From positions 1,054,001 through 1,118,000 of the forward strand of contig NC_014328.1 of NCBI RefSeq assembly GCF_000143685.1: DNA of 64,000 bases. The letters run 5' to 3'. This document shows, one piece after another, positions 27,554-35,320 of this stretch; the first letter of the stretch is position 1; every line of letters starts with the position of its first letter. The notes beneath the pieces are model-generated. The model worked only from the letters and a program-made list of their open reading frames with translations, ran no database searches and was not told the origin of the DNA. A program made the position numbers and the translations under genes. This stretch comes from Clostridium ljungdahlii DSM 13528. GTDB taxonomy: Bacteria; Bacillota; Clostridia; Clostridiales; Clostridiaceae.

Positions 27554-27870
27554 ATATTAACTTTATGTATGATAGTTAAAATAGAAGTTATTTATCCGAT
27601 GACTACCTGCTCTAGTACTTACACGCACTTTATGAAAGCGACTGTCACCAAATCAAAGATTTGGGATATCTGCTTTTCTCTAAGTTTACGTTGCGAGTAG
27701 CTATGTTCCTGGATAACGATTTCTAGGCATCAAGTGGAGTTAAAACTCCATCTGATGCCTAGAAATCTGTTTATGAAATACTTGGTTTTAGAGAAAAGGC
27801 TGTAGAGTATTATAATATGTATGGTGAATATAAGCCTGCAAGAAATAGATTTAGTAAAAAATATTTTTTA
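27554..27870 (+). pseudogene. Glycosyltransferase remnant with its core replaced by a palindromic insert
   Basis: Bases 27554-27587 match the start of the glycosyltransferase gene at 49839 (encoding LTLCMIVK). Bases 27773-27865 match its 3' end (LGFREKAVEYYNMYGEYKPARNRF). About 940 bases of coding sequence between them are missing and 185 bases of unrelated palindromic DNA take their place. No long frame remains. Confidence 0.8.
27588..27770 (+). repeat. Palindromic insert of unknown type
   Basis: The ends TTATCC-GATGA-CTAC (27589) and GTAG-CTATGTTCCT-GGATAA (27697-27716) form imperfect terminal inverted repeats, with a hairpin CCAAATC/GATTTGG near 27648-27664 between them. Adjacent is a strong hairpin, GATTTCTAGGCATCA (27718-27732) with 27753-27767 and an inner TGGAGT/ACTCCA. 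The GC-richer composition differs from the neighbours. It looks like a small non-autonomous mobile or structured RNA element. Confidence 0.6.
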
Positions 27871-28010
27871 TAAATATATTTTTATTTTTTATATAAAGTC
27901 CATTTAACTTAAAACGAATAATTAAGTAGAAGGATAAGGAATCCAAAGAAAAAAATATTGAAATTGGATATAAAGTTCTTTAAAGTTTTATCGAATAAAT
28001 TAATGTGAAA
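27871..28010 (+). other. Gene-free spacer before the csrA2 leader
   Basis: No gene. TAAA (27971-27974), a 15-base spacer and ATCGAATA (27990-27997) is a weak sigma28-like candidate with only 4 of 8 matches at the -10, so the csrA2 promoter remains uncertain. Confidence 0.3.
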
Positions 28011-28085
28011 GTCAGGACGACTAATAGACCTATTTATACTCTGCAGGAGGCAGAATTGATAGGTGTATTAGTCGCATTTTCATTG
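28011..28085 (+). ncRNA. Terminator-shaped RNA element with AGGA loops before csrA2 (copy 1 of 2)
   Basis: GTC-AGGAC-GAC opens the element at 28011. A 16-bp stem with one mismatch (28018-28033 with 28059-28074) carries an apical hairpin CTGC-AGGAG-GCAG (28041-28053) and is followed by GCATTTTCATT. The AGGA in the apical loop is the CsrA recognition type. A related element with the same layout is at 35236. It may be a small RNA, or a leader through which CsrA controls csrA2. Confidence 0.6.
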
Positions 28086-28113
28086 TAGAGATTTGACCAA
28101 GGAGGGAAGTAAA

Positions 28114-28290
28114 ATGTTAGTATTAGGCAGGAAGCCCGGAGAGTACATTGTAATTGGCGATAATATTAAGGTAAAAGTTATTAAAAGTGAAGCAGGTGAT
28201 TTAAGGCTTGCTATAGATGCTCCTAGAGATGTAGAAATCACTAGAGGTGAAGTTTGGGAAGAACAGCAGAAATTGAGACAAGCTAAATAA
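28114..28290 (+). CDS. csrA: Translational regulator CsrA, copy 2
   Basis: A 58-residue CsrA paralogue (MLVLGRKPGEYIVIGDNIKVKV) with the RNA-contact region DAPRDVEITRGEVWEE. The ATG at 28114 is placed 8 bases after AAGGAGGG. The in-frame TTG at 28093 lies before that site and is rejected. It is shorter than copy 1, has no fliW beside it and stands alone between a glycosyltransferase scar and the second flagellin. AGGA-loop hairpins lie both just upstream and just downstream. Confidence 0.93.
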   Translation: MLVLGRKPGEYIVIGDNIKVKVIKSEAGDLRLAIDAPRDVEITRGEVWEEQQKLRQAK

Positions 28291-28296
28291 AATAGC

Positions 28297-28430
28297 AAAG
28301 GTCAAAGAACAAATAACAAGATTTAAGACAAATAATAAAGTTCAAAGAACAAATAACAAAAAATGAAGATTTTCTGTTAATACCGAAAATCAACCTAATT
28401 TGATATTTGATATTTAATATTTGAACTTTA
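28297..28430 (+). repeat. Palindromic leader repeat, copy D
   Basis: GTCAAAGAACAAATAACAAG occurs twice in slightly varied form, then AAAAAATGAAGATTTTC, a loop, GAAAATC and ACCTAATTTGATATTTG, ending TTTGAACTTTA. Only the ATTTTC/GAAAAT part of the central stem still pairs. It separates csrA2 from the AGGA-loop RNA. Confidence 0.65.
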
Positions 28431-28447
28431 AAAAGTTACAGTATAAA
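28421..28447 (+). promoter_or_regulatory. Possible promoter for the AGGA-loop RNA
   Basis: TTGAAC (28421-28426) and TATAAA (28442-28447) are separated by 15 bases, shorter than the usual 17. The element is placed so that transcription would start just before the first AGGA hairpin. Confidence 0.35.
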
Positions 28448-28453
28448 CAATTT

Positions 28454-28533
28454 AATAAAAAACTCAGGAGGAGTCAATTGTTCTCGTAATTCAGCAGGAT
28501 GCTGATAGGGCGGGCATGATTGGCTCCTTTTTT
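28454..28533 (+). ncRNA. Candidate CsrA-binding small RNA downstream of csrA2
   Basis: Two AGGA-loop hairpins are present: ACTC-AGGAG-GAGT (28462-28474) and TCAGC-AGGAT-GCTGA (28491-28505). A 9-bp stem GGAGTCAAT/ATTGGCTCC (28470-28478 with 28519-28527, one G-U pair) followed by six T forms a terminator. No ORF of note is present. The layout of repeated GGA loops plus terminator is that of CsrB/RsmY-type decoy RNAs. Its position beside csrA2 supports this, but binding is not shown. It could also be the csrA2 3' region. Confidence 0.55.
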
Positions 28534-28645
28534 AATAAATAAAAAAGTTTAAGGAACAAATAACAGATAAATTAAGATTTTAGCTGATTAAATGTTGATT
28601 AATGTGTTTAGAATCTAGATATATTAAAGCATTTAGGAGGTTGAA

Positions 28646-29002
28646 ATGTTAAAGAAAAATATACTTTACGAAAAGACTTTTAAATTTTCAGTGAGAATAG
28701 TAAAGCTATATAAGTACCTTATTGATTATAGAAAGGAATATGTTATTTCAAAGCAAATACTCCGGTCAGGTACAAGTATAGGAGCTAATGTAAAGGAAGG
28801 AATAGTAGCACAGAGTAAAAGAGATTTCCTATCAAAAATGTATATTGCATTAAAAGAAGCTTCGGAGACAGAATACTGGCTTGAACTTCTAAAAGAAACT
28901 GGATATATTGATGGAAAAATGTTTAATTCTATTATTGAAGATTGTAAAGAAATTAGTAAAATTTTATGTGCTACAGTTAGAACTACAAAGGAAAGAATAT
29001 AA
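28646..29002 (+). CDS. Four-helix bundle protein (S23/IVS type)
   Basis: The 118-residue helical protein matches the four-helix bundle family first found in 23S rRNA intervening sequences: a central ISKQILRSGTSIGANVKEGI (near 32-52), then FLSKMYIALKEASETEYWLELL. Such proteins are often stand-alone and of unclear function. There is a GGAGG site before the ATG. It lies between the AGGA-loop RNA and flagellin copy 2, an unusual context. No rRNA is nearby. Confidence 0.85.
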   Translation: MLKKNILYEKTFKFSVRIVKLYKYLIDYRKEYVISKQILRSGTSIGANVKEGIVAQSKRDFLSKMYIALKEASETEYWLELLKETGYIDGKMFNSIIEDCKEISKILCATVRTTKERI

Positions 29003-29110
29003 AGCAAATAACAGAGTGCAAAGAACAAATAGCAAAAAATGAAGATTTTCGGTTAATACCTAAAATCAACTTAATTTGATATTTGATATCTGAACTTTGA
29101 ACTTTATTTT
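29001..29110 (+). repeat. Palindromic leader repeat, copy E
   Basis: Begins in the stop codon of the four-helix gene: AAGCAAATAACAGAG, AAAGAACAAATAGC, then AAAAAATGAAGATTTTCGG, a loop, TAAAATC, ACTTAATTTGATATTTGATA and TGAACTTTGAACTTT. The central stem has one mismatch (GATTTTC against TAAAATC). It lies in the region upstream of fliC2 as copy C does for fliC1. Confidence 0.7.
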
Positions 29111-29117
29111 GTTAGTA

Positions 29118-29183
29118 ATCCTCAAATGAATTGATAATCAATAATTGTTAAATATCAATTGTGAATTGTCATTTGATGAGGGG
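29118..29183 (+). repeat. Extra imperfect palindrome in the fliC2 upstream region
   Basis: CCTCAAATGAATT near 29120-29132 pairs imperfectly with AATTGTCATTTGATGAGG near 29164-29181, with TTGATAAT/ATATCAA inside. It interrupts what in fliC1 is a short TAAACC/GGTTTA hairpin. The following GGGTTTAACTATAAATAAA is identical to the fliC1 region at 18451. Confidence 0.5.
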
Positions 29184-29204
29184 TTTAACTATAAATAAAA
29201 AATT

Positions 29205-29244
29205 TAGTACACAAGGAAGTGTACTACTCGAAAATCAGGGAGGG
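29205..29244 (+). promoter_or_regulatory. fliC2 leader: CsrA-type AGGA hairpin and ribosome binding site
   Basis: A perfect 8-bp stem, TAGTACAC (29205-29212) with GTGTACTA (29219-29226), presents loop AAGGAA. CAGGGAGGG (29236-29244) is the ribosome binding site and contains AGGGA, which also fits ANGGA. The stem shares no sequence with that of fliC1 (GGGC/GCCC) but the loop and the spacing to the start are kept, strong internal support for a CsrA site. Confidence 0.72.
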
Positions 29245-29251
29245 AAATATT

Positions 29252-30895
29252 ATGATAATTAATCACAATTTACAAGCAAATAATGCTATTAGACACATGA
29301 ACAGCAATACTAATGCTGCAAGCAAATCAATGCAAAAACTTTCTTCAGGTCTTAGGATAAACAGTGCAGCAGATGATGCAGCAGGATTAGCTATATCTGA
29401 AAAAATGAAGGCACAGGTTGGTGGCCTTAATCAGGCTAATGCAAATGCACAAGATGGTGTATCAATGACTCAAACTGCTGAAGGTGCATTAAATGAAACT
29501 ACTTCAATTCTTCAAAGAATGAGAACGCTTGCTAACCAGGCAGCAAATGGAACTAACACTGATCAAGATAGATCCAATATACAGGATGAAATGGATCAGT
29601 TAACATCAGAAATCAACAGAATAGGTAACACTACTGAATTCAATACACAGAAGTTATTAGATGGTGGAACAGGCTCAGTTGATGGAAATAAAATTACTCA
29701 GGCTACAAGTGCAACAGCTACAATTGGAAAACTTACTGCCGGTACACTTACAAATGCATCTACATTAACTATTGATGGACAAACATTTAATTTTTCAAAT
29801 GTTAAAGTAGCAGGTAATGCAACAGATGGAGCAACTTTAGGCAATGTTACTAATGCTAATGGAAAGAAATTATCAGATTATGTAGATATTAAGGCTACAG
29901 CTAATTCAATTACATTTACTGATAAAGCAACAGGAACTACAAGTACACTTAGTGGTGCTACTGCATTCAGTGGTGTAACAGGTACAGGTACTGCAGCTAC
30001 AATAGCAAAATCTGGAGTTGAAGGTGCGAATGCTCTTACAGGTGCTGATATTTCAATAGCAGCAGGGTCTTCATTTACGGTTAAAGTGGGGCAGGATGCA
30101 GCTGTTACTGTAAATTTACCTTCAACAATGTCTAATAAAGTTTATAATACTAGTAGCACAGATAAGAATATACAACAAGCTGCTCTTCAAGATTTGGCAA
30201 GAGATTTAAATGCAGCTTTGCAAAATGCAGGACTTGGAAATAATGTTACTGCTGCAGTTTCAAGCGGAAATAAACTTCAGTTTATATCAAATACAGGAAA
30301 TGATATAACTCTTGCAGAAGTTGGAGCAGGTACTACATTAAGCACTACATTGGGAATGGACACTAATCTTAAAACAACTGGAATTGCTATACAACAAGTT
30401 GTAGGACCTGGAGCTGCAGGAAGTGGATTTAATACAACATTCCAGATAGGAGCTAATGAAGGACAATCCATGTCATTAAACATAAATGATATGAGAGCAG
30501 CAGCTCTTGGAATTACAGGAAATGCAGGACAGACAGGATTTACAATGACAAATACTGTTACAAATGGAACTACAGATATCAAGCAGGAAGCTGCATTAAA
30601 TGTTATGAATAAGGATGACGCTTCAGCAGCACTTACAACTATTGATAAAGCATTATCTACAGTTGCTGCTGAAAGAGGTAAATTAGGAGCAGTACAAAAT
30701 AGACTAGAACATACTGAAAACAACTTATCAACTTCAGCAGAAAACTTGACATCAGCTCAAGCTAGAATAACAGATGTTGATATGGCATCAGAAATGTCTG
30801 AGTACTCAAAGAACAACATTTTGTCACAAGCTGCTCAGGCTATGCTTGCACAAGCTAATCAACAGCCACAACAAGTTCTTCAGTTATTAAAATAA
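29252..30895 (+). CDS. fliC: Flagellin, copy 2
   Basis: A 547-residue flagellin paralogue with intact ends ([39 protein letters not shown], and C-terminal [18 protein letters not shown] to [11 protein letters not shown]). The centre, about 145-440, differs from copy 1, so the filament surface would differ. The ATG at 29252 matches the family start. An in-frame GTG at 29219 lies inside the CsrA-type hairpin and is rejected. The gene ends in its own terminator. Confidence 0.97.
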
Positions 30896-35186: not shown

Positions 35187-35235
35187 AGTTTTCAAGGATT
35201 AATTACTAATAATTAGTAAAAAATTCACAGATAAA

Positions 35236-35320
35236 GTCAGGATGACTAATAAATCTAGTATATTTTGCAGGAGGCAGAAGAAAAGAAGAAAGTAGGCTCA
35301 TTAGTCGTTATTTTTATTAT
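35236..35320 (+). ncRNA. Terminator-shaped RNA element with AGGA loops (copy 2 of 2)
   Basis: GTC-AGGAT-GAC (35236-35246) opens the element. GACTAAT (35244-35250) pairs with ATTAGTC (35300-35306) and an inner TCTA/TAGG segment extends the stem. An apical hairpin TTTTGC-AGGAG-GCAGAA (35263-35279) carries the AGGA loop. A T-rich tail GTTATTTTTATT follows. The layout and several blocks are shared with 28011-28085. It ends transcription of the glycosyltransferase pair or is an independent RNA. Confidence 0.6.

Follow-up and report, generated by a model that had tools for sequence, protein, structure and literature searches.

How a CsrA protein is controlled when its gene stands apart from fliW is the question raised by csrA2, a gene of Clostridium ljungdahlii DSM 13528 that lies in the window (i.e. 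the whole stretch of 64,000 nucleotides analysed here). In Bacillus subtilis, FliW is the named antagonist of CsrA and has been reported to bind the CsrA C-terminus, and the joint action of FliW and small RNAs (sRNAs) on CsrA is called undetermined for any species in the available portion of a review of the field (PMC7652899). The 4.63 Mb genome contains two csrA matches and a single FliW match, which adjoins csrA1; the absence of a fliW gene beside csrA2, noted in an earlier, sequence-only reading of this DNA, is thus borne out. The csrA1 product has 71 residues in translation and csrA2 is shorter at the C-terminal, FliW-binding end, so that csrA2 of the window may, judging from its length, lie outside FliW control. 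This argument is not general to relatives, since csrA products span 51-74 residues in a sample of 80 csrA loci drawn from Clostridium, Tepidibacter, Desulfosporosinus, Bacillus-like genera, Paenibacillus and others. Within the same sample, a FliW match is found within approximately 3 kb of csrA in six loci (0.9-2.9 kb upstream of csrA) and a flagellin match in 76.

The presence of conserved, terminator-like hairpins at both ends of csrA2, each with two probable CsrA sites built around GGA, suggests that RNA elements help control this gene. Our main reading, to which we assign a probability of about 0.47, is that the hairpins form a family of intrinsic terminators to which CsrA binds and through which the csrA2 transcription unit would be controlled. 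In this one genome csrA1 is linked to fliW and csrA2 is flanked by CsrA-type RNA elements, which makes the question of the joint action of FliW and sRNAs testable. The features discussed below are collected in table 1.

Table 1. Features of the csrA2 region and the third element copy, in window coordinates.
Feature	Position	Strand	Remarks
Sigma-70-type candidate promoter	27958-27986		overlaps the sigma-D-like motif
Sigma-D-like promoter, TAAAG-N16-CGAA	27971-27995	+	14 nt ahead of the 5' copy
5' copy, in the csrA2 leader	28010-28080	+	R2 60.6 bits; GGA at 28015-28017 and 28046-28048
csrA2	28114-28290	+	58 aa; PF02599, E 6.2e-22
3' copy, two-GGA terminator-type hairpin downstream of csrA2	28462-28533	+	fold, model R2 (59.5 bits), covariation
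GGA site 1 of the 3' copy	28467-28469	+	foot of long stem; alternative small hairpin 28462-28474 (ACTC-AGGAG-GAGT)
GGA site 2 of the 3' copy	28497-28499	+	apical hairpin 28491-28505 (TCAGC-AGGAT-GCTGA)
23S_rRNA_IVP gene	28646-29002		downstream of csrA2 and the 3' copy
Flagellin leader, likely CsrA target	29205-29254	+	AAGGA-loop hairpin TAGTACACAAGGAAGTGTACTA; GGGAGGG at ribosome-binding site
Flagellin gene	29252-30895		Pfam match
Third copy	35235-35315	+	between two glycosyltransferase genes; T-rich run after

The starting point was the suggestion that positions 28454-28533 may encode a CsrA-decoy sRNA with two AGGA-loop hairpins and a terminator. A two-GGA hairpin with a U-tract is real, and both of the hairpin strings quoted for it are present (table 1), as are the 3' arm and the T run reaching 28533; only half of the arrangement had been seen, this hairpin being the 3' member of a pair. 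The two AGGA hairpins do not stand separately: the most stable structure is one long hairpin (28466-28531, -33.7 kcal/mol), whose apex is formed by the second of them and whose long stem includes the 9-bp terminal stem of the original description, while the first is an alternative fold drawing on bases that make up the foot of this stem. The 80 nt as first delimited fold with a z-score of -6.1, and none of 200 shuffles was as stable. The TATAAA string put forward as a -10 element is found at 28442-28447, but a consensus scan lists no plus-strand promoter there, and in 25 of the 36 relatives having a 3' copy it starts 4-52 nt past the csrA stop codon; both observations weigh against a promoter of its own for the 3' copy and against a stand-alone 80-nt sRNA gene, as does the copy in the csrA2 leader, which is just as well conserved. 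The 3' copy does possess the stable stem followed by a U-tract that characterizes intrinsic terminators; a simple terminator scan, which allows only loops of 3-8 nt, picks up neither this copy nor the one in the csrA2 leader.

The 5' copy was noticed by side-by-side reading of homologous csrA loci. It has the layout of the 3' copy, namely an AGGA, a long stem, an apical hairpin whose loop contains AGGA, a closing arm and a T run, which is short in the window, and it folds with -28.2 kcal/mol (z -5.8). A scan for two-AGGA hairpins (two AGGA, a fold of -12 kcal/mol or better and at least eight outer pairs) over 160 records returned 86 hits, from which nine rejected by eye and offset duplicates were removed to leave 63, and 47 of these 63 make up alignment A2. 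A first covariance model, R1, was set aside, its alignment having caught the apical hairpin only. When the whole C. ljungdahlii genome is searched with model R2, three strong copies are found, all of them in the window, the next match having an E-value of 0.045; the third copy scores 49.2 bits with filters off and 38.6 bits with default filters.

The RNA structure of the element is strongly supported. In the 47-row MAFFT alignment, the rows of which were picked for folding and for AGGA so that pairing, covariation and GGA conservation are inflated, 86.7% of cells are paired compared with 67.4% after shuffling, and covariation is 0.586 compared with 0.245, a value reached in none of 500 shuffles, which do not keep the relatedness among rows; sliding the structure by 1-3 columns lowers covariation to 0.11-0.21. 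For 19 3' copies alone, the corresponding figures are 96.0% versus 77.4% paired and 0.656 versus 0.290 for covariation, again matched by none of 500 shuffles, with changes on both sides in 16 of 21 pairs, and the apical helix is 95.8% paired with both-side changes in all five of its pairs. The covariation of alignments A2 and A4 is partly selected for; a fold test of the region from -130 to -20 before csrA is free of row selection. At the 80 loci it gave a median z of -5.1 (control median, -0.4), with z below -3 in 56 of the 80 csrA leaders versus 8 of 160 control windows from the same loci, and 62 of 80 leaders had a loop with GGA in their best fold, versus 408 of 4896 control windows. The small 5' hairpin is no requirement of the structural scan; of 72 distinct flanks, 43 can form at least four of its pairs, compared with a mean of 22.1 and a maximum of 31 over 1000 shuffles, and 13 are limited to one pair. 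In the 19 3' copies its pairing is 92.1% versus 88.1%.

Conservation in relatives with linkage to csrA2, which the sequence-only reading had proposed as a check, emerged from the covariance model search. Among 206 genomes of the family, R2 matches with E <= 1e-6 were found in 21, each of which belongs to the 22 genomes that encode a csrA2-type protein (E <= 1e-14), and the remaining one of the 22 (G195) has a copy at 32.9 bits, approximately 40 nt upstream of csrA2. The association (21 of 22 versus 0 of 184) has a Fisher p of 8e-28, which is to be read with the facts that both cut-offs were picked after the lists had been seen and that R2 E-values are rough. Weak matches occur in 12 of the 184 other genomes, their best E-values ranging from 5.5e-5 to 0.0055. 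The rows of A2 were drawn from 39 sources, and 19 of the 21 positive genomes (all except G023 and G027, as judged by coordinates) supplied training rows, so that presence in these genomes is partly by construction and absence from the 184 is not. Of 44 loci that gave no training rows, 30 were matched in the csrA flanks at E <= 0.01. In a set of 59 relatives, strong matches are confined to the eight csrA2 genomes, with weak ones in three others. No match at E <= 0.01 was obtained in 23 loci whose csrA genes are less similar (43-58% identity), csrA1 of the window's own genome among them.

Of 157 matches, 150 form alignment A3; inclusion of the seven weakest, which were omitted, would raise the number of loci with a 5' copy by two (L079 and L087) and that with a 3' copy by one (L081). 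Matches on the minus strand, which for the most part mirror the same hairpin, were excluded. Counts of transcription signals use 126 plus-strand rows, those of GGA pairing the 121 with both GGA, those of GGA spacing 116 distinct sequences and those of the small 5' hairpin 72 distinct flanks. A 5' copy is present in 59 of the 80 csrA loci, a 3' copy in 36 and both in 29, tandem copies occur in some loci, and in one locus (L137) a copy lies 799 nt from the csrA start; 13 loci have no match in A3. The 5' copy ends 28-46 nt upstream of the csrA start codon in 48 of the 59 loci, i.e. it occupies the fixed place before one kind of gene that is expected of a cis-regulatory leader. In 27 of the genomes behind these loci, searched whole, 51 matches at E <= 0.001 were obtained, one of which is a mirror, with 1-3 copies per genome; 48 of the other 50 fall within csrA loci and two within 8 kb. 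One of these outlying copies is 71 nt before a FliD gene (FliD_N, E 6e-25), with a sigma-D-like motif ahead of it by eye, and the other lies approximately 150 nt ahead of a flagellin-like open reading frame (ORF). Two Desulfosporosinus loci (L086 and L098) have a weaker copy ahead of a flagellin-like ORF.

The two GGA of each element differ in how far pairing exposes them. In the 121 rows with both, the median predicted probability that GGA 1 is unpaired is 0.95 before the 3' arm is made and 0.02 in the full hairpin; GGA 1 is more open at the earlier stage in 119 of the 121 and exceeds 0.5 at that stage in 100. For GGA 2 the probability of being open is greater than 0.5 in 110 of the 121 before the 3' arm and in 119 after it. 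CsrB-type RNAs repeat GGA in their loops; here there are two GGA per element, and as a rule just the apical one remains exposed in the full hairpin. For the 3' copy of the window, GGA 1 has a probability of 0.39 or 0.98 of being unpaired, according to the cut point, and then of 0.06 in the full hairpin, GGA 2 having 1.0 in every state tested; for the 5' copy GGA 1 starts at 0.48 or 0.99 and ends at 0.72, and for the third copy the values are 0.99 and then 0.37. The flanks of the sites, C-A-A-GGA-C/T-G for site 1 and GCAGGANGC for site 2, resemble the SELEX consensus of CsrA, RUACARGGAUGU (PMC7652899, in the part available). The spacing of the GGA was considered as evidence for bridging by CsrA and dropped: with a standard deviation of 1.61 against 1.78 for the 3' side of the hairpin, it is no tighter than the latter and is therefore not independent evidence.

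Signals for starting and ending transcription accompany the element. At least six T within 7 nt come after 49 of the 57 near 5' copies, and the same holds for 33 of the 41 3' copies. The motif TAAAG-N16-CGAA ahead of the 5' copy of the window is sigma-D-like. With a spacer of 11-16 nt and CGA[AT] allowed, 22 of 60 leaders (the 59 loci and the window) have it in the 130 nt that precede their first 5' copy, versus 99 of 3000 control windows (p 8e-17). Twenty of the 22 leaders that bear it belong to Clostridium, Tepidibacter, Desulfosporosinus or the window, and the gap between motif and element is 14-47 nt in 19; as written, the motif is absent from the other 38 leaders. An RNA comprising the 5' copy could be made alone from the promoter-like motif if transcription stops there.

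As synthesis of the 3' arm usually ends the exposure of the 5' GGA, CsrA bound to the growing transcript would be in competition with the terminator, and from the modelled pairing it looks as if terminator formation usually excludes occupation of GGA 1. The more specific form of our reading, a transcription switch operated by CsrA in which CsrA binding and the intrinsic terminator are mutually exclusive, and which would be found throughout Clostridia and Bacilli, both at the two ends of a csrA gene lacking an adjacent fliW and in further flagellar leaders, is put forward tentatively, its chances being somewhat short of even. As we envisage it, a sigma-D-type promoter would start the RNA just ahead of the 5' copy; once the first 45 or so bases are made, GGA 1 would be mostly single-stranded or in the small hairpin loop and GGA 2 in the apical loop, and a CsrA dimer could hold both, approximately 30 nt apart. 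Without CsrA, the 3' arm would pair down to GGA 1 and transcription would stop at the U-tract; with CsrA on the nascent RNA, the terminator would be hindered, and RNA polymerase would continue into csrA2 or, at the 3' copy, on towards the flagellar genes. The leader copy would in this way make csrA2 expression dependent on free CsrA, and the 3' copy would govern readthrough towards the flagellar genes, while the short terminated RNAs, with at least one exposed GGA, may additionally titrate CsrA as decoys. If the switch is true, it is a protein-operated terminator built from very simple parts. The further copies in flagellar leaders (FliD, flagellin) count in its favour. Counted against it are the 13 loci that are without a match in A3, the openness below 0.5 of GGA 1 in both csrA2-flanking copies at one of the two cut points (0.48 and 0.39), the best fold of a truncated RNA, in which GGA 1 is partly paired, and the positive feedback that antitermination of csrA by CsrA would entail. 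The 5' copy of the window also fits the switch poorly, having a short T run and a GGA 1 that the full hairpin leaves largely exposed (0.72); as modelled, it may be more a CsrA binding site than a terminator.

The same exposed sites might instead serve chiefly to sequester CsrA in trans, the terminated leader and the 3' end of the csrA2 mRNA acting as decoys while termination itself is uncontrolled. Such a role would suit the near-general exposure of GGA 2 in the full hairpin and that of GGA 1 as well in the window's 5' copy, the combination of a promoter-like motif with a terminator, which would yield a short RNA, and the tandem copies in some loci, and the Csr-family sRNAs of many Gammaproteobacteria do work by binding CsrA (PMC7652899, in the part available). 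We nevertheless regard it as rather unlikely, given that GGA 1 is usually predicted to be paired in the full hairpin, which leaves one good site, and that the 27 genomes searched whole have 1-3 copies each at E <= 0.001.

Still less probable, and in our view improbable, is translational autorepression, by which the 5' copy would tether CsrA2 so that it covers the csrA2 ribosome-binding site. The short and regular distance to the start codon and the GGA contained in that ribosome-binding site are in keeping with it, and tethering by a hairpin with bridging to the ribosome-binding site has been described for glgC (PMC7652899, in the part available), but neither the 3' copies nor the U-tracts are explained by it. 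That these are ordinary intrinsic terminators with incidental GGA motifs, as the long stem with its U-tract and the place of the 3' copy, where a csrA2 terminator belongs, might indicate, is hardly credible in view of the presence of the same element at both the front and the rear of csrA2, the varied bases that partner GGA 1 in the near 5' copies (TT in 26, CC in 19 and others in 12 of 57), the restriction of strong copies to csrA2 genomes in the family set, and the excess of GGA-bearing loops in csrA leaders over control windows.

The element proposed here as a CsrA-binding terminator can be set beside known CsrA ligands. It shares with CsrB, CsrC, RsmY and RsmZ the GGA in hairpin loops, a terminator-like end and a probable, i.e. 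predicted, role as CsrA ligand, but it has two GGA, one of them within the terminator stem, it flanks csrA, it occurs in Firmicutes, and no CsrB/C or Rsm model of Rfam matches it, either in the window at the gathering threshold or in 27850-29300 at E <= 5. CsrA-binding RNAs have been proposed in Firmicutes before: Gardner and Eldai (2014) predicted two families, TwoAYGGAY (RF01731) and Bacillaceae-1 (RF01690, in reverse complement), for Clostridia and for Bacillales/Lactobacillales (PMC4333381, in the part available). These have two CsrA-type motifs in common with the csrA2 element, which matches neither model in the window (gathering threshold), in 27850-29300 (E <= 5), in 20 loci (gathering threshold) or in 11 loci (E <= 1), and which is, by those Rfam models, a distinct family. 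Across these scans the element could be placed in no Rfam family at all. Weak Rfam hits at the copies (mir-5583, E 0.85 and 1.5) and overlapping copies in L096 and L108 (Plastid-psbJ-3 and mir-237, each E 0.62) were judged to be due to chance. Titles and abstract openings in the literature searched contain no description of a two-GGA csrA2 element, and 'csrA' occurs 0 times in the available text of each of two structured-RNA surveys (PMC8632094 and PMC6429828); as far as these sources go, what is new is the architecture and the fixed link to csrA2, the kind, a CsrA-type regulatory RNA, being known.

Two further systems offer partial parallels (PMC7652899, in the part available). In the Escherichia coli pgaA leader, CsrA bound at two sites blocks a hairpin and alters transcription termination, but there CsrA promotes Rho-dependent termination; in the csrA2 element the hairpin is itself an apparent intrinsic terminator, so that CsrA would oppose termination. 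The FliW-CsrA-flagellin switch of Bacillus subtilis has in common with the present locus a csrA near flagellin and CsrA-type sites in the flagellin leader, and differs in that csrA2 has no adjacent fliW and, in the window genome, a shorter C-terminus. The flagellin leader of the window (fold z -3.6) is, from its sequence, a likely CsrA target, and comparable flagellin leaders are seen by eye in two relatives (L032 and L145).

Some other peculiarities of these loci may be recorded. Two AT-rich direct repeats of 122 nt, D1 and D2 (28309-28430 and 28985-29106, 84% alike), bracket the 3' copy and the 23S_rRNA_IVP gene, resembling an inserted or duplicated unit, and the AT-rich repeats between csrA2 and the 3' copy may be the cause of the long spacer found here. 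Pieces resembling 23S_rRNA_IVP are apparently downstream of csrA2 elsewhere too (L141 and L083, by eye). The interval preceding csrA2 contains an inverted repeat with 24-nt arms, 92% complementary, and a 2 nt gap (27718-27767). Tandem csrA genes within a single locus were called by eye from ORF lists, some on the opposite strand, in L088, L097, L112, L090, L083, L094, L101, L129 and L110; several have an element copy before or between them, which suggests duplication of element and gene together. Group I introns are found near the csrA/flagellin region in L076 (1982-2330) and L088 (4550-4879).
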